From positions 1-24,719 of the IMG/VR virus record IMGVR_UViG_3300030503_000204: DNA of 24,719 bases; one strand, given 5' to 3'. The stretch is from a virus. The notes below the pieces were generated by a model, which was not told where the DNA came from, made no database searches, and saw only the letters and a program-made list of their open reading frames with translations. The translations under genes and the position numbers were made by a program. How positions within the stretch are numbered: position 1 is the stretch's first letter; each line of letters starts with the position of its first letter. This document shows, in pieces, positions 657 to 23,419 of this stretch.

Positions 657-953
657 ATGCTCGAATCCAAAGTCGAACGCGCACTCGTGAAGTGCGTAGA
701 GGCCGTCGGCGGGATGTGCGAGAAGCACGTCTCTCCGGGGCGCATTGGGGTACCAGATCGTCTCGTGACGTGGCCTGACGGCACGATGCAGCTGGTGGAG
801 ACGAAGCGCCCTGACGGGGACTTACGCGTCCCCCAGCGGCGTGATCATATCCGCCGCGCGAAGAAGATGGTCGTGGTCCGCATGGTGTACACGATCGAGC
901 AGGCGCGGAACTATGTGGAGGCTGAGGCCTCGCACTGGATTGAATTCAACTGA
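657..953 (+). CDS. VRR-NUC domain nuclease, 98 aa
   Basis: This is a stand-alone VRR-NUC nuclease of the PD-(D/E)XK superfamily, the size usual for phage members. The catalytic signature is visible: GVPDR with Asp34, ETK with Glu48 and Lys50 after the WPDG turn, and Gln60 in the segment that follows. In this family these residues bind divalent metal and cut DNA, often branched or junction-like structures. The gene starts immediately after the preceding stop and its TGA overlaps the helicase ATG by one base (953). Phages often pair a VRR-NUC with a SNF2-type helicase, so a role in recombination or processing of replication intermediates is inferred. Confidence 0.9.
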   Translation: MLESKVERALVKCVEAVGGMCEKHVSPGRIGVPDRLVTWPDGTMQLVETKRPDGDLRVPQRRDHIRRAKKMVVVRMVYTIEQARNYVEAEASHWIEFN

Positions 954-2326
954 TGCTCTACGTCCCGAAGCCTCACCAGGACCTGATCAGAGACTTCACC
1001 CTCGACGTACCGCGTGGCAAGGTCGCGGTGGACATGGGGCTCGGCAAGACCGCCGGGCTCCTCTCGGCCGCGGATCTGCAGAGGTTGGGTGGTGCGAACC
1101 TATTCCCGATCCTAGTGCCGGCACCTAAGCGTGTCGCGCGCAGCGTGTGGCCGGCGGAGGTTGAGAAGTGGGACCAGTTCAAGGGTTTCAAGGTCGAGAA
1201 GATCCTGGGCACCGCTGCACAGCGTGAGAAGGCATTGAGGCGGCCCGTCGCGGACATCTACACGATCAACTACGACAATATCCCGTGGTTGATGGAGACA
1301 CTCGGTGAACGAAAGTGGCCGTTCAAATGGGTCATCGCAGATGAGTCCACCCGACTTAAGGGTTTTAGGCTGCACGGCGGAGGAGTACGCGCAAAGGCAC
1401 TTGCTCAGATTGCTCACCTTACTAGCCACTGGCACAATCTCACAGGGACAATTGCTCCAAACGGTCTTGTCGACCTATGGGGACAGTATTGGTTCCTCGA
1501 CTTCGGACAGCGACTCGGACGCACTTTCACTCAGTTCCTCGATCGCTGGTTTTTCGTCAATGATTACACGCATGAGATCACTCCCAAGCCCGGAGCCGCC
1601 GAGGAGATCTACGCTGCAATCGCAGATATCACGCTACTGCTTCGGGCAGAGGACTGGCTCGACATTGAGGAAGATCTCGAAATCCCGGTCGAGATAGATC
1701 TGCCGGCGCCGGTACGCGCGCAGTACGATCGGATGGAGAAGGATTTCTACACTGAGGTGGGCGAGGGCGTTGAGATCGACGCGCTGTCCGCGGCCTCCAA
1801 GTCCTCGAAGCTCCTGCAGATGTGCTCGGGGTCGGTGTATGACGACAACGAGGTCGCGCACTGGGTGCACGATGAGAAGATCCCGGCGCTGGAGAACATT
1901 GCCGAGGAGACAGGCGAGCCACTCCTGGTGCCGATCTGGTGGCAGTTCGATACGCCCCGGATCCTGAAGCACTTCTCCGGGGCCCGGGTGCTCAAAACCC
2001 AGAGGGACGAGGACGATTGGAACGCCGGTAAGATCCAAATGGGCCTGATTCACCCGCAGTCAGGGGGCCATGGATTGAACTTGCAATATGGGGGGAGGAA
2101 CGTGGTATTCTTCTCCCAAACCTGGGACATGGAGCTTCGTACCCAGGTACTGCAGCGCGTCGGGGCGGCCCGGCAGATACAGGCGGGATTTAAGCGAGTG
2201 GTACGCGTCTTCGACATCATGGTACGAGACTCAATGGACGGCGTCGCTCGGGATCGAATCAGAACCAAATGTTCGGTGCAAGACGCCCTGCGCGCCGCCC
2301 GAGCCAGGAGGTCGACGAGTGGCTAA
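953..2326 (+). CDS. SNF2-like superfamily 2 helicase/ATPase, 457 aa
   Basis: A phage-type DEAD/SNF2-like ATPase containing both RecA lobes. In order: KPHQ near the N-terminus, Walker A GLGKT at residues 29-33, the Walker B-like box ADEST with Asp130-Glu131, and motif III-like LTGTIAPNGL at about residue 165. Motif V-like GGHGLNLQ follows near the C-terminus. Motif VI is LQRVGAARQIQ, where the canonical form is closer to QaxxRxxRxGQ, so two residues appear inserted before the arginine. It probably acts on DNA during replication or recombination with the upstream VRR-NUC and polymerase. It is shorter than cellular SNF2 remodelers, as phage versions usually are. Its 3' end overlaps the next gene's GTG start by 8 nt. 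Confidence 0.9.
   Translation: MLYVPKPHQDLIRDFTLDVPRGKVAVDMGLGKTAGLLSAADLQRLGGANLFPILVPAPKRVARSVWPAEVEKWDQFKGFKVEKILGTAAQREKALRRPVADIYTINYDNIPWLMETLGERKWPFKWVIADESTRLKGFRLHGGGVRAKALAQIAHLTSHWHNLTGTIAPNGLVDLWGQYWFLDFGQRLGRTFTQFLDRWFFVNDYTHEITPKPGAAEEIYAAIADITLLLRAEDWLDIEEDLEIPVEIDLPAPVRAQYDRMEKDFYTEVGEGVEIDALSAASKSSKLLQMCSGSVYDDNEVAHWVHDEKIPALENIAEETGEPLLVPIWWQFDTPRILKHFSGARVLKTQRDEDDWNAGKIQMGLIHPQSGGHGLNLQYGGRNVVFFSQTWDMELRTQVLQRVGAARQIQAGFKRVVRVFDIMVRDSMDGVARDRIRTKCSVQDALRAARARRSTSG
2306..2311 (+). promoter_or_regulatory. Strong ribosome binding site AGGAGG that fixes a GTG start at 2319
   Basis: AGGAGG lies inside the end of the helicase gene, seven bases before GTG 2319. It supports that GTG as the start of the next gene over the longer in-frame extension to 2088, which has no comparable site and would overlap the helicase by more than 230 nt. 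An ATG at 2340 in the same frame is a weaker alternative. Confidence 0.8.
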
Positions 2327-4064
2327 CAAACTAGTAACCATGAAAGAGGCGGTAAAACTCCTCACCAAAGGCGACTCTCGCCCGAAATGCCCCAAGTGCG
2401 GCAAGGGTATGACTATCGGGCAGAAGGCCCAGAGCGGCAGGCAGAGGTGGGAGTGCGTGACCGGCAAAGTCTACTGCTACTCCACCACCAATCCTCAAGA
2501 CGGCGTTGTGCGGGGCCAGGACGGCACCCAGATCCGCACCACCCCGAAGGTGTACAAGCGCTCACTGAGCGGCTCCAAAATCTTCGTCATCACCGCGGCA
2601 CAGAACGCGACCCCGATGCACGACGCCTTCGTCGAGAACCTCAAGAAGTATTGCGAGCACCGTGACGCGGAGCTGCTGATCGTCCCGATCCGCTATAAGA
2701 ACGCGACCTCAGTATGGACCGACAGCCAGCGCAATGCGGACTGGTGGCTGGACGCACCGGCGCCCCCGTACGATCTGCGCGAGGATAAGTACCGCAAGCT
2801 GTCGTTGGCCAAGTACGAGGCGAAGGTCTACCCAAACCGTAAGTATCTGTGGAATGTCAGGCGTCGTTTAAATGAGAACCTGATCCTGTGCGCGGATGTG
2901 AAGACGCAGCCGACCGCGGTCTCGCCTCTTGCCGGCTGGGAGCCGATCACGCACGGCGAATCGATGATCCTGGCGCACACGAAGGTGCAGCTGCGCACGG
3001 TGGCGACGCCCCAGGGCCGCCTACCGAAGATCATGACCACCACCGGCGCGTGCACGCTGCCGAACTACACCGACACGGCGACCGGTAAGCGCGGCGAGTT
3101 CCACCATACGCTCGGCGCGGTGGTGGTCGAGATTCGCGGCAAGACCTTTCACATGAGGCAGATCAATGCCGAGAAGTCGACCGGTGCCTTTTACGAGGCT
3201 CACAGTGGAGATGTCTGGTACTACGGCGCGGACTGGAGCGGGGGCGCCCCGGTTTGTGTTGATGGAGAAGACTCCGCAATGCGCCCTCTATATCTTGAGA
3301 TGGGAGACACCCACATCCGAGGTATCGATCCTGCGGTCGAGCGCGCGACTTTCCAGGAAATCATCCCGCAACTGAGGCCGCGGGTCCTGGGATGGAACGA
3401 CGTGCTGGACGGCCAGAGCGTCAATCATTGGACCGAGCAGAATCCTTTCGTTTCCACGGCGCTGTCGTACAGCCGTCTGGACAACGTCGAGGAGGAGGTG
3501 CAGGAGAGCTTCCGATTCATCACCGAGCGCCTGGACGGCGTCGACAGCGTCATCATCAAGCCCTCCAACCACCACGACTGGCTGATGAAGTGGCTGAAGT
3601 TCACGGATTGGAAGAAGATCGGCCCGAAGAACCGCGCTTTCTACCTGGACAGCGCGAGCGCCATGGTCAAGAAGGCCTCCACGATGCATCCGGATGATGC
3701 CGAGCGGCTCGACGCGTACATCGAGTTCGCCAAGCTCCACTTCGTCAACGACTCACGCGTGAAGGTGCTCGACTATGATGAATCGTATAAGGTCGCTGAT
3801 ATCGAGGTGGGCATGCATGGTCACCTCGGGCCCAATGGAAGTAGGGGCACCGTCGCCAATTACTCCAAGCTCGGCGTTAAGACCATCGCTGGCGACTGTC
3901 ACGCCCCAGGCATCATGGGTGGGGCGTGGCGCGCTGGTACATCGACACTTCTCAAGCGCGGCTACAACCGCGGCCCGTCGGGCTGGCTGAACACGCATGT
4001 GCTGGTGTACGCCAACGGGAAGCGCACCATGATCAACGTCATCAACGGGAGCTGGAGGCTCTAG
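2319..4064 (+). CDS. Zinc-ribbon protein with metallophosphatase-like motifs, 581 aa
   Basis: The start is GTG 2319, behind a perfect AGGAGG. The N-terminus carries a likely zinc site: Cys24 and Cys27 (CPKC), then Cys46 and Cys53. A beta-rich middle region follows. The last 230 residues show a series resembling calcineurin-like metallophosphoesterases: an Asp-rich WNDVLDG near residue 360, SNHHDW (like GNHD) near 415, GMHGH near 500, and GDCHAP (like GHTHxP) near 525. The end, RGPSGWLNTHVLVYANGKR, looks well conserved. Size and layout remind me of the T5 A1 protein family, which is needed for second-step DNA transfer and host DNA degradation, but that is memory-based. It may instead be a nuclease or phosphatase of other function. 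Position after the helicase suggests an early gene. Confidence 0.55.
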   Translation: MANKLVTMKEAVKLLTKGDSRPKCPKCGKGMTIGQKAQSGRQRWECVTGKVYCYSTTNPQDGVVRGQDGTQIRTTPKVYKRSLSGSKIFVITAAQNATPMHDAFVENLKKYCEHRDAELLIVPIRYKNATSVWTDSQRNADWWLDAPAPPYDLREDKYRKLSLAKYEAKVYPNRKYLWNVRRRLNENLILCADVKTQPTAVSPLAGWEPITHGESMILAHTKVQLRTVATPQGRLPKIMTTTGACTLPNYTDTATGKRGEFHHTLGAVVVEIRGKTFHMRQINAEKSTGAFYEAHSGDVWYYGADWSGGAPVCVDGEDSAMRPLYLEMGDTHIRGIDPAVERATFQEIIPQLRPRVLGWNDVLDGQSVNHWTEQNPFVSTALSYSRLDNVEEEVQESFRFITERLDGVDSVIIKPSNHHDWLMKWLKFTDWKKIGPKNRAFYLDSASAMVKKASTMHPDDAERLDAYIEFAKLHFVNDSRVKVLDYDESYKVADIEVGMHGHLGPNGSRGTVANYSKLGVKTIAGDCHAPGIMGGAWRAGTSTLLKRGYNRGPSGWLNTHVLVYANGKRTMINVINGSWRL

Positions 4065-4066
4065 TC

Positions 4067-4525
4067 ATGAAGTACCCGGACCTGATCATAGGGCCGAAGG
4101 AAAACCCACAGACCCACCGCTGGCATTTGTGGGTGCCGCAGTGGCTCTATCGGCGCGGGTGGCGATTGAACCTGCATCGTTGGTTCAAGAGCGATGACGA
4201 TCGAGCACTGCATGACCACCGAGGCGACAGCTGGACGGTCGTGCTGTGGGGTGGCTACTACGAAGTCACCTCGCACGCCTGGGAGCCGCCGAAGCGCCGC
4301 TGGTGCGGTCCGGGTTCCGTCGTGTTCCGTCGCGGCGAGATGCCGCACCGGATCGAGCTGAGGGAGGGCCACGGTGCAGTATGGTCACTATGGTTCCGTG
4401 CACCGTTTCGCCGCGAGTGGGGCTTCTGGTGTCCAAAGGGCTGGACGAAGTGGCAGGAATATTTGGCCGAGTCCGACTACAGCAAGCCGGGTTCCGTATC
4501 AATTCGAGGGAGAGGATGTGAATGA
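4067..4525 (+). CDS. Cupin-fold protein, 152 aa
   Basis: The start is ATG 4067, with GGAGG at 4054-4058; a longer extension to 3926 would overlap the previous gene by 139 nt. The protein is rich in Trp and Arg and has a single-cupin pattern. The metal-binding segment is HDHRGD (His49, His51), followed by SWTVVLWGGYYEV strands, a PGSVVFRRGEMPHRIEL second motif with His94, and a closing WSLWFRAP strand. Such phage cupins bind a metal and may be dioxygenases, isomerases or just binding proteins; the substrate cannot be told. It ends in an ATGA overlap (4522-4525) with the next gene. An N-terminal basic, aromatic patch (WLYRRGWRLNLHRW) is a possible nucleic-acid contact, which is a guess. Confidence 0.75.
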   Translation: MKYPDLIIGPKENPQTHRWHLWVPQWLYRRGWRLNLHRWFKSDDDRALHDHRGDSWTVVLWGGYYEVTSHAWEPPKRRWCGPGSVVFRRGEMPHRIELREGHGAVWSLWFRAPFRREWGFWCPKGWTKWQEYLAESDYSKPGSVSIRGRGCE

Positions 4526-5070
4526 CTACCGAAACTGAAAGTATTTTGCAGGAAGCCCAACGTCTCACGCACGGCGACCGCGCCAAAGACTACGGCCACC
4601 CGCTGGATGATTACACGCGCACCGCGGCGCTCGTCTCGGCGCTGCTGGCGCACAAGCTGAGCGAACCGATCAGCCCTCACGAAATGGCGATGGCTATGAT
4701 CTGCGTGAAGCTCTCGCGGCAGGTGAATCACCCGAAGCGCGACAACATGACCGATGCCGCAGGCTATGCCTGGGTATCGCAGGAGTGCGTCGACGAAGCC
4801 GCACGCCGCGCGCCACTGGAGTCCCGCGGTCCGATCCTCGGCCAGGATTTCCCCAAATTCCCGACCGTGTACTCGCAGACCCCGGGTCCGTTTCAAAGCT
4901 CCGATCAGTGGCCGCCCGCCACTGAGGTCGATGCCTGGGAGTATGTTTGCTTCCGTGAAGGTTGCCCGGGACATAAAGTAAGTGGTGGCCACTGTATGAA
5001 CAGCAATCCGGCGCTGGAGAGCGCAGTGGATGGACGCGACTATGGCTTCCGCAGGAAGGCCATCCCGTGA
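4522..5070 (+). CDS. DUF6378-like phage protein with Cys-rich tail, 182 aa
   Basis: ATG 4522 overlaps the cupin stop (ATGA), with GAGGGAGAGG just upstream. The first ~95 residues match the DUF6378 pattern common in phages: ILQEAQRLTHGDRAKDYGHP, a helical middle ending in MICVKLSRQ, and a closing HPKRDNMTDAAGYA. The all-helical layout with conserved E, K, R and D residues resembles MazG/dUTPase-type NTP pyrophosphohydrolases, so nucleotide-pool hydrolysis is a reasonable but unproven role. The C-terminal ~85 residues are unlike the usual short family members. They contain CFREGCPGHKVSGGHC, a possible small zinc site. The gene overlaps the next by GTGA at 5067-5070. Confidence 0.72.
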   Translation: MTTETESILQEAQRLTHGDRAKDYGHPLDDYTRTAALVSALLAHKLSEPISPHEMAMAMICVKLSRQVNHPKRDNMTDAAGYAWVSQECVDEAARRAPLESRGPILGQDFPKFPTVYSQTPGPFQSSDQWPPATEVDAWEYVCFREGCPGHKVSGGHCMNSNPALESAVDGRDYGFRRKAIP

Positions 5071-5507
5071 CCGTCATCGCGGTGCGCAGTGGAATCATCG
5101 CCGCGGACTCGCGAGAGACCTGGGGTGATGACACGCACAGCCAATGCGAGAAGCTCTTCCGCAAGAAGATCGGGCGCCGCGATCATATCATCGGCACCGC
5201 GGGTGGCTCGTATTCGGGGATGGTGTTTCTGGATTGGTACGGCTCGGGGAAGGAGCCGCCTGAGTCTCTGACTCAATTGGACCTCGAAGAGGATTTCGAG
5301 GTGCTGGTGTGGGACGGTCGCAAGCTCTTCACCGCGAACCATCTGTGCCGGCTCGTGCCGGCACTGGGCCGATTCTATGCGATCGGTTCAGGAAGGAAGG
5401 GCGCGATGACCGCCATGCATCTGGGGGCCAGCGCGCAGGAGGCGTGCGCAGTGACATGCAAAGTTGATGTCAGCTGCGGACTACCCATCACCTGGATGAA
5501 GCTCTAG
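5067..5507 (+). CDS. HslV/proteasome-like Ntn hydrolase, 146 aa
   Basis: The start is GTG 5067, overlapping the upstream TGA, with AGGAAGG at 5053-5059. The N-terminus MTVIAVRSGIIAADSR fits the proteasome/HslV fold. Thr2 would become the N-terminal nucleophile after Met removal, Asp14 matches the conserved Asp, and Lys29 in CEKLF matches the Lys33 position of HslV. GTAGG follows, as in HslV. The C-terminal AIGSG...GASAQEAC...CGLP also follows the family. At 146 aa it is shorter than HslV (about 175). Phage homologues exist, but their substrates are largely unknown; it could be a peptidase or amidohydrolase. It is the last gene of the operon, and its TAG shares CTAG with the opposing gene. Confidence 0.8.
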   Translation: MTVIAVRSGIIAADSRETWGDDTHSQCEKLFRKKIGRRDHIIGTAGGSYSGMVFLDWYGSGKEPPESLTQLDLEEDFEVLVWDGRKLFTANHLCRLVPALGRFYAIGSGRKGAMTAMHLGASAQEACAVTCKVDVSCGLPITWMKL

Positions 5508-5541
5508 TGCTCCAGGATCCCATTCACCGGGTAGGTGATGG
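5485..5541. other. Convergent operon junction with 9-bp inverted repeat
   Basis: The two opposing operons meet with no intergenic DNA: CTAG at 5504-5507 reads TAG on both strands. A perfect 9-bp inverted repeat flanks it, CCATCACCT at 5485-5493 and AGGTGATGG at 5533-5541, with a nested CCTGG/CCAGG pair at 5491-5495 and 5512-5516. There is no T-run and the outer loop is 39 nt. It may be a weak bidirectional terminator or chance within coding sequence. Confidence 0.3.
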
Positions 5542-6223
5542 TGAAGCCGACCGGGAATCCCTTGGAGCCCCCGATGGTCCAAGACGCCGCACCCGTGACG
5601 GGGTTCGCCTGGAAGGTCATGGTCTGGTTGAACCCCTGCTGGGCGACTGCAGTGATGTAGGCTGAGTTATTCTCGGCCGGGATCGAGTGGAACGTGTCAC
5701 CTCCGGCCACCATCGTCGGCCAACCACTGCCCGTCAGATTGTTCATGAACAGATTCGTCGTGGCAGAGGTGATCAGGCCCGACGACACCTGCAGCGTGCA
5801 CACGGTGCCGCCGTTTGAGAGCCAGTACGCATAGCTGACGGTGGTCGTGTTCGTGCCATCACTCAAGGTGGCCGTGCCACTGCCGGTGGCGCCCGTGAGG
5901 GCCGCGATCGAGGCACCCACTACGTACGGGTCGACATTCTCTAGCAGCTGCCCTGAGCTGTTGTAGAGCTGCACACGGTAGGTGATCGACGGGTTGAGGT
6001 AAATCGGATTGAACCGGCCGTTAGCATCTGCCGTACAGCTGGGCTGAGCCTGCCCTGGCGTCTGTGAAAGAGGGGTCGACAGCAGGCCATCCGCATACAC
6101 CTGCTGGGGTACCAGACCCCCGGTATTGTAGAACAGGTAGTAGGCGCCGGGCATGGGGTCACCGGTGGCGCTCAACGGCTTCGCCTGCGGATCATCAAAC
6201 AACATTCCAGAAGCTGCGGCCAT
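5504..6223 (-). CDS. Tail fibre-like protein with head-binding-type N-terminus, 239 aa
   Basis: The start at 6223 directly follows the previous gene's stop, with GGAG seven bases before the ATG. The N-terminal half has the pattern seen at the start of many podovirus fibres and spikes: MPGAYYLFYNTGG, VYADGLLSTPL, DANGRFNPIYL, then YRVQLYNSSGQLLENVDPY. These strands usually anchor fibres to the tail. The rest is Gly/Thr/Ser-rich and beta-prone, without a recognisable enzyme domain, ending in GFTITYPVNGILEH. It is shorter than a normal fibre, so it may be a base subunit to which another protein attaches, or a short receptor-binding protein. It is the last gene of the late operon, far from the main tailspike. 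Confidence 0.65.
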   Translation of the reverse strand: MAAASGMLFDDPQAKPLSATGDPMPGAYYLFYNTGGLVPQQVYADGLLSTPLSQTPGQAQPSCTADANGRFNPIYLNPSITYRVQLYNSSGQLLENVDPYVVGASIAALTGATGSGTATLSDGTNTTTVSYAYWLSNGGTVCTLQVSSGLITSATTNLFMNNLTGSGWPTMVAGGDTFHSIPAENNSAYITAVAQQGFNQTMTFQANPVTGAASWTIGGSKGFPVGFTITYPVNGILEH

Positions 6224-9200
6224 TTAAAACTCCGTGTCATCGTCACCGAGCAGCGGGGAGGCGCTCTTGCCTCGTGCCGCAGATCGTTCTTGCCTGACGC
6301 CCTCTAGGCGCTCGGCGGCTTTGTAGAGGTGTGTCCTGAGAGAGCGTGAAGCAGCGTCTGCCTTTTGGCTTGGAGAGCTGCTGCCGGGGTCTGATCCCGT
6401 CCCTTCATGTAGTCGCTCAAGACCCCCACTGAATCGAGAATCTCTGAGGACGTTACTGTGCCCGGCTTCTTGGAAGAGGGTATGGAAGGCGGGGGTGGAT
6501 TTGATAAGCTCATCGGTGATCTCTCCGTTCTTCACCAACTCAGGGATGGTGGCCATGCCACCGAATTCGTCGGCGTGTTCGTACGCGGTCTTCGCCCAGG
6601 ACCAAACGGTCTCCTGCACCTCCGCGGGTGTCCACTTCTCACCGGTTTTCCTGGTGAGCATGGCGGCCGCTTCGCGTACCTTGGCCGAGTAGCCCAGGTA
6701 CGTGGGCGACTTGCCGGGCCCGGTCTTCGTGAGACCGCCCGCGAAGCGGTTCTGATCGATGTGCGCGAAGCTTGCCATCCAGGCATCGAGTGTGACGGCG
6801 TTCACATGACCTTGCAGGTTCTTCATGAACGAGTCGACCTTCGGGCCCGACAGCGTGAGGTTCTCGGGGTCCGGATCCGTGAGCGCGCGCACTGAGTTGT
6901 TCACCCAGGCGCCCAGCACGTTGGACTTGCCTTCCGCCTTGGCAACAGGACTCTTCAGTGAGTTCTGCTCCATGATGGACTTGATCTCGCCGGGATCGGT
7001 GGGCCGCCCGGCCTTGTCCCAGCCGACGAAGGTGCGCAGCGCGTTGTGGAAGTTCATCTGCACGGAGGTCTGCGGGCTCATCGCGGCCAAGAGCGCAGTG
7101 AAGCGCGGCGCGTCGGGCCCGAAGACGTTCGTGATCGCCTTCGCACTATCATCGTACCAACCGCGCTTGGCCTGTCCTGCGAGCGCAGCGGCCGCCAGCT
7201 CGTGCGTGGGGGGCAATTCGTGGAACGCCTCGACCATACGCATGGCGGTGTCAGTGCGCAGCTGCGCCTTCTCCGGTTCCGTCAGGTACTTGGTGATTGC
7301 ACTGGGCGCCTCGAACTTCGGCCCACCGCGCTGGCGGGGCAGTGATAAACTCAACGGCCGGCGCGGCTGCGACGGGCCCAGTTGATCCACACGCACCGCC
7401 TGGGTCGGTTGGAAGAGTCGAGCCTGACCTTTGAAGATGCCATCGCCATTCGGGAGATGATAGCCGAGATAACCGGCAGTCTTGACGGCCTTCTCAACCT
7501 GGGTGTGGTCGTACACGCCATCGTTGCGCGCCATGACCTTGTCGATGATGCCCTTCGGATCCGCCGACAGGTCATATAGCTTTGAGCGGGGAACAGAAAC
7601 TCGATACTCAGTGCGTCCTCGTAGCTCATGTTCCACCTGATTGTCTGGGTGATCGATGCTGTAGAGACTGATCGACTTGGGCGCGCCGCCCGCCACGCGC
7701 GTGGCCTCACGGCCCTTCAACCCGGTGCCGTACTTGTTCGGATCCAGGGTGACTTTGTAGTCATCCAGGTTCGAGAAGTGGCGGAACAGCAGGTTGCCGG
7801 CAGCCTTAGGGCCGCCGCGTTCTTTTGGGGACGCACCGCTCAGTGGCCGCGGGCCATCACCGTGCATTCCAGTCGTGATCTCAGACTTCGGCGCCTTGCG
7901 TCCGTTGAGATCGATGATGCGGCCCTCGATCGTGCGGCCCAGCGCCTTGTCCGCCACGAAGTTCGCAGCGCCGTGGATCGCCCGGCCGGCGAGCCAGCCC
8001 GGGATGTGACCCATGGCCGCACCGGCGCCTTCAGCCGCAAGACCGCCGCCCTTCAAGATCCCGTTGGTGATGAAGTTCTGCTTCTGCGCCTCAGCACCCG
8101 GGTAGCTCTTGTCCTGATGCAGCCAGCGGCCCGCGTTGTCGAGGTCCTGGTACTTGCCCAGTTCCTCGGAGGTGAACACCTTGCGCATGTTCAACTCGTG
8201 ATCCTTCAGGTACTGGTTGACGGCCTTCTGGTTCCAGGCACCCGCGGTCTTGTTACCCGCGGCCAGGATCTCGTTGGCATACTGCGCGCGCACCTCGCGC
8301 AGCGCGGCCAGGGACTTACTCCACAACTCGGGGCTTGCGGTCGCGGCCTGCTTGAGCACATCGATGTAGTGGCCGAACTGATCCGGCTCCAGCTCCGCTA
8401 GATACCGCGGCACTTCCGTGAACGGCACGTTGCGGTTGATGCCGAGGCGGTTGGCCTCCTTCGGCTGCAGCAACTTCGAGACGGCCTCGGGCTCCTCCAG
8501 GATCTTCGAGCGCAGTGCGCGGATCTCGCGCGCCTGCTTGAAGATGTCGCGCCCGGCGCTCGCGGCCACGTCGTTGTCGAGGTTATTCTTCAGCATCGAG
8601 ATCAGCTGCGTCAACTTCGGCTGCCACTGCTGGCCGATGTATTGGCGCAGGCGCTCGGCCTGCTCGACGGTCGCGGGGTGAAAGGTCTCATTGTCGTCGC
8701 CCACGAGACCCAGCTCGTTCATCCGCGAGAGCACGCCCTCCATCAACTGCTTGCCCTCGACGGTTCCGAGGAACTCAGACTTCTTCTTGGTGAGGAAGTT
8801 CGCGAGCCCGTCGGTCTGGATCGGCTTGCCCGCAGCAACGGTCTTGGCGATATCGTAGATGCGCTGAGTGGCCTTCTCCAGATGCTGGTCGTACCCGTCG
8901 ATCGGCGCGGCCTGCGTGCGCCCGCGCGCCTCCATGTCGGGCTGGGCAAGACCTTTGGTGCCCCCGGAGTCCGACACGAGATTGTCCGCGTGCTGGATCA
9001 GCGCGTTCCTTTCCGACTCCTGGAGCGCGGTCATGCGCTGCCCAACCGGGTGATCGAGCTTGGATGTCTGGAAATCGCTCGCGGCTTCCTTCGCGTTGCC
9101 GGTCAGGGCGCTTTGACGGACCTCGTCGAGCCCGATGCGTTTAAACGTCGAAGCTCGGCGCGCCTGCTCAGGCTCACCGACTTCCGCGACGCCGCCGACT

Positions 9201-10951
9201 TTGGCGGGATCTGCGAAGATTGACTTCGAAGGGCCCGCTCGTACCCCTGTCGGCGCGGCGGCCTCGGGCGGCTTGACGGTGTAGAAGTTCCCATTTTCAT
9301 CTCGGGTCCAACCGGCATAGGTGCTCGCCTCGCTGGCGGGTACCTGCTTCATGGCTCCAAGCCATTCCTGGCGGCCGTCCCCGTAGTGCAGCGTCGCGTT
9401 CTGATTCGCGTCGACGTGCATCACACTGTCCTGCTTGAACTGCTGGGCCACCTTGTTGACGAAATCGGCGGCCTGCGGCGTGGGCGTGGAGACCGCGTAA
9501 GAGTGCTCGGGGACGCCGAGGTATTGGCCTTGGGTCGGCGCGGATCGCAGCCCAGCCGCCTGCAGGTACTGGCCCAGGATCTGGGTATTGCGGGCGTTCT
9601 CCTGCGGCGGGGCGTCCTGGCGCTCGGCGCTCACCATGGCATACGGCACCCCGTTGCGCATGGGGTGAGTATCGTTCGGGTGGATGTAGGGCTCGGGCGC
9701 CGACTGCGGCAGCGGTGCCTCATTCACCTCAACCCCGCCGTCGGGCGTCGTGGACGGCGCTTGACCCTTCTCGGAGGTCAGCTCGCCAGCCTCTACGGCG
9801 CGATCCAGGGCCCCCTGGGCGGCTTTATCGTCCAGGTCCGCGCCCTTGGACACGATCGTGACCTTCTTGGCGCCGTCGCCCTTCTGGACGATCACAGTGC
9901 CCGGCGCGGCGACGGTGTCAGCCGCGTCGGCACCGACCAACGGGGATGCCTTGCCGTCGGCCGTGATGACATAATGGTCCGGAGGCACCGCGGAGGCGGA
10001 GAAGTCCTGGGCCTTGGTCGCCTGCTGGACCTCCGCGTCAGTCTCGGTCGGGACTGCGGCGGAGCCCGGCGTGGGCTTTCCGACGGCCACCGGTGCGGTT
10101 TCTGGAGCCGCTGGGGCGGCCTTCTTGCTGGACCCTTCCGCCTCTGCCGGCGTGGGACCGGGCAGGCTGGGGGTCTTCAGGATGCGCTCGGCGGGGTCTA
10201 CCTGCACGTTCCAGTAGTCCCAGAAATCGTTGAGCATGTCCTCGGCGTTCGGGACGCCCGAGGTCGATACCGCCGTTCCCGGGGCCTTCGCAGGGGCTCC
10301 GGGCGAGGTAAGATGATGCACCGCGGCGCCGGTCAGGATGCCGGTCATGGCTGCCACCGAATCAGGGGCCCCGGAGTCGGCCACCTGCTGGCTGACCGCG
10401 CCGCCCAGCGCGCCCGCGGCGGCCGCCGGCAGGTTCCCACCGGACGCCAGGGTTGCCCCCGCACCCTCGCCGCCCGCATTCAGGTACTGATTGAGCTTGG
10501 TCTTCTGGACGGAGTTGACGAGGTTGCCGGCGCCCAGGTTCGAGACCTGTTGCTTCAGCCACTGGGACGAGCCCACATCATACTTGTACTTGTCCGGATC
10601 CTCCGGCTGCAACCAGTCTGGGATGGTGCCCGTGGTGAGCTTCGAGACCACGCCCGCGCCGGCCTTGGCCATCTCCTTGATGTTGCGCGCGGTATCGACG
10701 GGCGCACCCACGACATCGAGCACACCGGAGTTGAACCCCGTGGCTGCGGCGTTCGCGCCGCCGAGTGCGGTCTGCTTATCCTTCTTGACCGGCGCGGGCT
10801 CTTCGGCCGCCACACTCCACTCATCAGTCGGCGCCGCTGCGGTCTGTGCGGCCGCGGGGATCGAGGGCGCAGGGGTAGGTCCCGTGGTCGGATCGACCAC
10901 GGGAGCAGGCTGCGGAGCTGCGGCTTCTGAGGCTACATCCCAATCAGACAT
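6224..10951 (-). CDS. Very large internal/ejection virion protein with effector-like C-terminal modules, 1575 aa
   Basis: This is the largest gene, at the end of the ejection block. Residues 1-50 are Pro/Ala-rich and unstructured. Residues ~60-240 are Gly/Ala-rich (membrane- or assembly-type), ~240-560 low complexity, and ~600-960 long helices. A Gly/Ala-rich amphipathic stretch follows near 975-1020. Around 1050-1190 is a module with RHFSN, LDPNKYGTGLKG, YDLSADPKG and GYLGYHL. That module recurs in large phage polyvalent proteins and may be an ADP-ribosyltransferase-like or other toxin-like fold. Residues ~1215-1500 hold WYDDSAKAI, AMSPQTSVQMNFHNAL and LSGPKVDSFMKNLQG...VTLDAWM, reminiscent of helix-hairpin-helix DNA glycosylases. 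By position it replaces P22 gp16-type ejection proteins. The fold calls are inference. Confidence 0.7.
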   Translation of the reverse strand: MSDWDVASEAAAPQPAPVVDPTTGPTPAPSIPAAAQTAAAPTDEWSVAAEEPAPVKKDKQTALGGANAAATGFNSGVLDVVGAPVDTARNIKEMAKAGAGVVSKLTTGTIPDWLQPEDPDKYKYDVGSSQWLKQQVSNLGAGNLVNSVQKTKLNQYLNAGGEGAGATLASGGNLPAAAAGALGGAVSQQVADSGAPDSVAAMTGILTGAAVHHLTSPGAPAKAPGTAVSTSGVPNAEDMLNDFWDYWNVQVDPAERILKTPSLPGPTPAEAEGSSKKAAPAAPETAPVAVGKPTPGSAAVPTETDAEVQQATKAQDFSASAVPPDHYVITADGKASPLVGADAADTVAAPGTVIVQKGDGAKKVTIVSKGADLDDKAAQGALDRAVEAGELTSEKGQAPSTTPDGGVEVNEAPLPQSAPEPYIHPNDTHPMRNGVPYAMVSAERQDAPPQENARNTQILGQYLQAAGLRSAPTQGQYLGVPEHSYAVSTPTPQAADFVNKVAQQFKQDSVMHVDANQNATLHYGDGRQEWLGAMKQVPASEASTYAGWTRDENGNFYTVKPPEAAAPTGVRAGPSKSIFADPAKVGGVAEVGEPEQARRASTFKRIGLDEVRQSALTGNAKEAASDFQTSKLDHPVGQRMTALQESERNALIQHADNLVSDSGGTKGLAQPDMEARGRTQAAPIDGYDQHLEKATQRIYDIAKTVAAGKPIQTDGLANFLTKKKSEFLGTVEGKQLMEGVLSRMNELGLVGDDNETFHPATVEQAERLRQYIGQQWQPKLTQLISMLKNNLDNDVAASAGRDIFKQAREIRALRSKILEEPEAVSKLLQPKEANRLGINRNVPFTEVPRYLAELEPDQFGHYIDVLKQAATASPELWSKSLAALREVRAQYANEILAAGNKTAGAWNQKAVNQYLKDHELNMRKVFTSEELGKYQDLDNAGRWLHQDKSYPGAEAQKQNFITNGILKGGGLAAEGAGAAMGHIPGWLAGRAIHGAANFVADKALGRTIEGRIIDLNGRKAPKSEITTGMHGDGPRPLSGASPKERGGPKAAGNLLFRHFSNLDDYKVTLDPNKYGTGLKGREATRVAGGAPKSISLYSIDHPDNQVEHELRGRTEYRVSVPRSKLYDLSADPKGIIDKVMARNDGVYDHTQVEKAVKTAGYLGYHLPNGDGIFKGQARLFQPTQAVRVDQLGPSQPRRPLSLSLPRQRGGPKFEAPSAITKYLTEPEKAQLRTDTAMRMVEAFHELPPTHELAAAALAGQAKRGWYDDSAKAITNVFGPDAPRFTALLAAMSPQTSVQMNFHNALRTFVGWDKAGRPTDPGEIKSIMEQNSLKSPVAKAEGKSNVLGAWVNNSVRALTDPDPENLTLSGPKVDSFMKNLQGHVNAVTLDAWMASFAHIDQNRFAGGLTKTGPGKSPTYLGYSAKVREAAAMLTRKTGEKWTPAEVQETVWSWAKTAYEHADEFGGMATIPELVKNGEITDELIKSTPAFHTLFQEAGHSNVLRDSRFSGGLERLHEGTGSDPGSSSPSQKADAASRSLRTHLYKAAERLEGVRQERSAARGKSASPLLGDDDTEF

Positions 10952-23343: not shown

Positions 23344-23419
23344 TGGCTGGCGCGCGTGGGGTCGAACCACGGACAGACGGATTAACAATCCGTTGCTCTA
23401 CCAACTGAGCTACACGCCA
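23344..23419 (-). tRNA. tRNA-Asn (anticodon GTT) with encoded CCA
   Basis: Reading the minus strand from 23419, a complete cloverleaf can be drawn: acceptor TGGCGTG/CGCGCCA (with one G-U), D-arm GCTC/GAGC, anticodon stem ACGGA/TCCGT with loop TTGTTAA giving GTT, and T-arm CGTGG/CCACG with TTCGACC. Position 73 is G, followed by encoded CCA, for 76 nt total. It is only one base from the portal stop and about 55 bases before the scaffold start. It is a full gene, not an att-site fragment. Confidence 0.93.

Follow-up and report, generated by a model that had tools for sequence, protein, structure and literature searches.

A predicted PPH-family proteasome-like hydrolase in a phage early-side operon with a T5 A1-like gene

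The PPH gene and its neighbours

The window analysed here is the entire 24,719-nucleotide stretch of IMG/VR record IMGVR_UViG_3300030503_000204. It corresponds to the right-hand part of a 36,908-base IMG/VR record of the same virus (3300030739_000026), with one mismatch in the compared stretch. Its plus strand codes for a VRR-NUC-type nuclease, a SNF2-type helicase, a T5 A1-like protein, a phrog_4786 protein, a DUF6378 protein and a PPH, in this order, in genes that are packed with overlaps or 2-nt gaps (Table 1). The portal, scaffold, coat, adaptor, closure, endolysin and ejection genes are found on the minus strand. The PPH gene is the last of the early-side operon, in agreement with the earlier note, which had it transcribed with replication-side genes: its plus-strand companions include the VRR-NUC, SNF2 and A1-like genes. 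The A1-like protein shares about 29% identity over 97% with the A1 proteins of T5-like phages; its structure model was poor (pLDDT 47) and was discarded. Note that, on the minus strand, a tRNA-Asn(GTT) gene (23344-23419) lies between the portal and scaffold genes and a 1575-aa ORF without annotation (6224-10951) is found among the virion genes.

The PPH ORF lies exactly where it had been placed and the residue numbers given for Thr2, Asp14 and Lys29 are correct. It starts with a GTG codon followed by a Thr codon, the start overlapping the stop of the preceding DUF6378 gene by 4 nt (GTGA), and its 3' end overlaps the stop end of the convergent gene by 4 nt. No alternative ATG, GTG or TTG occurs among the 30 open codons upstream of the GTG; Thr2 therefore directly follows the initiator residue and the protein has no propeptide. 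Scans for promoters and terminators gave matches at no more than chance level.

Table 1. Features of the PPH locus (window positions)
Feature	Position	Strand	Evidence or remark
VRR-NUC-type nuclease gene	657..953	+	phrog_93, E 2.1e-17
SNF2-type helicase gene	953..2326	+	phrog_62, E 8.5e-113
T5 A1-like gene (phrog_1745 'DNA transfer protein')	2319..4064	+	E 1.2e-128; start inferred, Shine-Dalgarno-like AGGAGGT
phrog_4786 gene ('cysteine dioxygenase', cupin-like)	4067..4525	+	E 9.3e-34; start inferred
DUF6378 gene	4522..5070	+	PF19905, E 1.8e-19
Shine-Dalgarno-like AGGAAGG	5053..5059	+	sequence; 7 nt before the PPH GTG
PPH gene	5067..5507	+	146-aa proteasome-like Ntn hydrolase; stop included
Thr2 codon, predicted N-terminal nucleophile after Met removal	5070..5072	+	70/70 pattern-selected and 17/17 A1-anchored relatives
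Asp14 codon (= Asp17)	5106..5108	+	invariant in 70 relatives
Lys29 codon (= Lys33)	5151..5153	+	invariant in 70 relatives
Gly46 codon (= oxyanion Gly47)	5202..5204	+	Gly in 59/70 relatives
Codons 72-78, acidic stretch DLEEDFE	5280..5300	+	replaces HslV H2 and the Arg86/Arg89/Lys90 pore cluster
Convergent gene, virion-gene strand	5504..6223	-	weak phrog match only

Family membership, predicted fold and active site

The window protein matches phrog_1040, annotated 'peptidase HslV family' (E 8.4e-28), and tblastn found distant relatives in 254 phage records; a DNA search of phage records gave no near relative of the window. Its scores in Pfam and NCBIfam are below threshold, so that it would be missed by these collections alone, and 21 of 70 family members individually match Pfam Proteasome. 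A plain sequence search of the PDB yielded weak matches to BPH only, which a profile built from the 70 members turned into firm ones (BPH, E 4.8e-12; HslV, 3.8e-10; proteasome beta-5, 1.5e-9). A hand-written consensus-like probe was used once, solely for retrieving real relatives.

PPH is an already named family (Fuchs et al. 2021, PMC8665760; phrog_1040) and the window protein is a further member, the phrog_1040 match serving as proxy for the PPH cluster of the published map. That publication describes PPH as proteins of about 140 residues from phages and their hosts, placed on the HslV/BPH side, that have neither helix H2 nor a propeptide; H2 is also missing from RPC, and propeptides occur only in proteasome beta and HslV. 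The window protein has the same features: 146 residues, absence of H2 and of a propeptide, a Thr/Asp/Lys/Gly site, and a tailed phage as source, as seen from the portal, scaffold, coat, closure and ejection genes. An RPC-type carboxyl-terminal extension is absent. Its identity as a PPH with an intact predicted active site is firm. What sets it apart from PPH as described in the portions of that publication consulted, where linkage to A1-like genes is not mentioned, is its gene surroundings only.

The AlphaFold2 model of the window protein (mean pLDDT 96) supports with high confidence a proteasome-beta fold. Foldseek matched the model to HslV (E 7e-10) and also to Anbu, while in VIA-align the best match was HslV (Z 18.3, 140 residues, 2.6 A), with BPH at Z 16.5 and proteasome beta at about 16. 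Both HslV and BPH are matched, and the predicted fold is that of an Ntn hydrolase. The predicted helices are H1 (48-57), a single turn (66-69), and then H3 and H4 (110-118 and 123-133). Helix H2 is absent from the model and the HslV alignment has an unmatched stretch at the same place. The earlier note had called the protein HslV/proteasome-like: the Ntn fold stands, whereas HslV itself is ruled out as identity since both H2 and the basic pore residues of HslV, Arg86/Arg89/Lys90 (PMC5777263), are missing.

The fold and catalytic residues are shared with HslV (ClpQ), from which the window protein differs in being about 30 residues shorter and in having no H2, no basic pore cluster and no HslU gene nearby. 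BPH (5ovs), the best profile match of the family, resembles PPH in the absence of a propeptide, in Met removal (predicted for PPH), in an acidic pore-side stretch and in having no known unfoldase, but it keeps H2, followed by a long acidic pore loop; the acidic stretch of the window protein is short. Anbu and connectase also have a proteasome-like fold, the PPH model differing from them by the absence of the Anbu carboxyl-terminal H5 coiled coil and of the connectase S3/S4 helical insertion, respectively.

Thr2, Asp14 and Lys29 align with the catalytic Thr1, Asp17 and Lys33, and model residue 2 is superposed on HslV residue 1. The catalytic set is intact, as had been proposed, Asp14 and Lys29 being present in all of 70 relatives. 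No variation occurs at Thr2 and Gly9 in this set of 70 either, which was selected partly by an N-terminal search pattern that biases the counts at these two positions; Thr2 is likewise present in all 17 PPHs of the A1-like-anchored scan described below, which were found without use of the N-terminus. Further positions of the proteasome site are represented by Gly46, Ser108 and Asp134, which we take to be Gly47, Ser129 and Asp166 in proteasome numbering. Position 137, presumably equivalent to Ser169, is Cys in the window protein, which is less frequent in the family than Thr or Ser (T 32, S 24, C 12, A 2; n=70). The dN/dS values lie for the most part at 0.04-0.22, one cluster being at about 0.37; these are family values, the window gene's only close relative being identical in sequence.

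Loss of Thr2 was not seen in close homologs. Ten phrog_1040 proteins from isolated phages were compared: Thr2 is present in eight, and one, from Rhizobium phage RHEph10 (L106:3001-3453), has Ser as second residue; the tenth, from phage BarnCat, apparently lacks its N-terminus as annotated. Ser at the nucleophile position is also found in some BPH (PMC5777263).

Linkage of PPH to T5 A1-like genes

An A1-like gene accompanies PPH in 10 loci out of the 25 that rank nearest to the window protein, and in none of the more distant loci. When 80 loci were anchored on A1-like genes, without selection for PPH, 17 were found to carry a PPH gene, always on the same strand and adjacent to the A1-like gene in 16. 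PPH is just upstream of the A1-like gene in nine of them, directly downstream in seven and 4.2 kb off in one. Six of the seven downstream genes overlap the A1-like gene by 4 nt (ATGA/GTGA) and the seventh (L199) is in-frame with it. Four of the 17 contigs were known from PPH-first searches and a few are near-copies. Under the same treatment, PPH was found in 0 of 80 loci anchored on SNF2 helicase genes and in 5 of 80 anchored on portal genes, three of these five being the query's own sources. Fisher tests that ignore shared ancestry gave p 6e-6 against SNF2 and 4e-4 against portal with the sources removed. At least seven changes of the A1-linked label have to be assumed on a tree of 82 PPHs, which indicates that the link was gained or retained repeatedly. 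Mid-ranked neighbour clusters, which include antisense shadow ORFs, were left out of the analysis. No description of an A1-PPH linkage was found in the literature searched, and we regard it as new.

The L199 arrangement (L199:7833-9848) is a single 672-aa frame made of A1-like and PPH sequences. It was not taken for a true fusion, since its relative L188 has separate, overlapping genes; a small deletion with respect to L188, or an assembly variant, is the probable explanation.

T5 cannot degrade host DNA without A1, and during takeover Dmp breaks down nucleotides that derive from the host (PMC13250531). The pre-early A1/dmp genes of T5 have counterparts around PPH: the A1-like gene of the window operon and, in relatives, A1-like and dmp-like genes that flank PPH. 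The dmp-like genes were found near PPH in six loci (L023, L024, L032, L038, L041, L046). In T5-like phages themselves the phrog_1040 gene is far from A1, unlike in the window, and isolated phages that have both genes often carry them at a distance from each other, for instance T5-like Salmonella phages (S132 among others), Caulobacter phages and Erythrobacter phage XM05. The PPH gene of Jerseyvirus adjoins holin and endolysin genes and not an A1-like gene. The strongest hint at what the window PPH does comes from the A1-like gene found upstream of it in the operon and not mentioned in the earlier note.

Candidate roles and alternatives

The reading that we favour, at about even chances, is that the window PPH is a threonine hydrolase that acts independently of HslU, is made early and serves host takeover; it is favoured because of the linkage of PPH to A1-like genes and the need for A1 in host DNA degradation by T5. 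Met-Thr is a standard substrate of methionine aminopeptidase. BPH produced in E. coli loses its Met, as determined by mass spectrometry (PMC5777263), and from these two facts Met removal is predicted for PPH, so that the host aminopeptidase would expose Thr2. The protein would then self-assemble through H3/H4 into some oligomer and cleave peptide or amide bonds without HslU. Made early, alongside the A1-like protein and nucleotide-metabolism proteins, it may aid takeover; it could, for instance, eliminate a restricted group of host proteins or recycle peptides during host DNA degradation. The literature searched holds no activity for any PPH, and BPH, a close relative, was inactive as a protease in vitro (PMC5777263). 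Note that the presence of A1 and PPH in one early region could have no mechanistic reason, and that loci of the same lineage are not independent. The A1 linkage, seen with PPH on either side of the A1-like gene and often with the stop codon of one gene overlapping the start codon of the next, is a testable lead toward early infection and A1, and could help to explain the action of T5-like A1 proteins, themselves poorly understood. A narrower and more tentative proposal is that PPH is a dedicated partner of the A1-type takeover protein, that is, a threonine protease or ligase made in step with A1 and directed at a particular target of host or phage origin. If so, this would be a first function for a viral homolog of the proteasome.

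That PPH is instead a small-molecule amidohydrolase, or a peptide ligase like monomeric connectase, is doubtful. Connectase, a proteasome-like family member devoid of H1/H2, is a ligase (PMC8665760), and PPH has no H2 and has nucleotide-metabolism genes as neighbours; however, the two-helix insertion that connectase carries between S3 and S4 is absent from the PPH model. Less probable still is a role in counter-defence, with PPH as a protease that eliminates an immune protein of the host. The patchy, mobile distribution of PPH over many phages and genome positions fits an accessory gene of this kind, but PADLOC gave no match for PPH, DUF6378, phrog_4786 or A1-like proteins, and the highly conserved catalytic core bears no arms-race signature.

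A head-associated role, as prohead protease or head-morphogenesis helper, is slightly less probable again. The genes that directly precede PPH in three close relatives (L023, L029, L041) code for portal and head-morphogenesis proteins, and in other loci PPH is found near genes for head-tail adaptors or major head proteins. The earlier note's statement that PPH does not belong with head genes holds for the window phage and fails for the family, as these three loci show. Against a head role, many PPH loci are away from head genes, and the window gene ends an early-side operon on the strand opposite to the portal, scaffold and coat genes of a head that looks P22-like; the note, too, held a prohead protease unlikely. 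Heads of the P22 type mature without proteolysis, and in L029 a separate head maturation protease gene lies 3.3 kb from PPH, which together make a prohead-protease role unlikely here.

The least probable reading is that PPH takes the place of host HslV, or joins it, in ATP-dependent degradation powered by the HslU of the host. HslV is the closest structural match of PPH, and some PPH-bearing phages infect E. coli, a host that has HslUV. The tails of HslU fit into pockets at the interfaces of HslV subunits, to which residues 54, 57 and 114 and the main chain of residue 79 contribute (PMC6429459). In the alignment, residue 79 sits in the missing helix H2, Phe54 and Phe57 correspond to Met52 and Leu55 of PPH, and the basic pore cluster gives way to the acidic stretch. 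Use of host HslU, which the earlier note had offered as one option, is accordingly disfavoured by the alignment and the model, and appears unlikely. BPH, a descendant of HslV, likewise lost the HslU contacts (PMC5777263). The note's remark that no ATPase partner is encoded nearby extends to the whole 36.9-kb record of the same virus, in which no HslU-like or AAA_2 ATPase was found, and to other PPH-bearing records, with no match to HslU (TIGR00390) in 20 and none to AAA_2 in 10; these searches bear on phage genes and not on the HslU of the host.

PPH variants were also observed in other phages. Aeromonas phage 4L372XY (L108:2432-3828) carries two adjacent phrog_1040 genes coding for dissimilar proteins of 183 and 275 aa that both begin Leu/Val-Thr, possibly a two-subunit phage proteasome. 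The second of these (L108:3001-3828) and two further PPH-like proteins (L073:4016-4822 and L109:2995-3687) are extended at their carboxyl termini, and the three extensions have in common an acidic, Leu-rich segment, following the catalytic domain, that is reminiscent of RPC.
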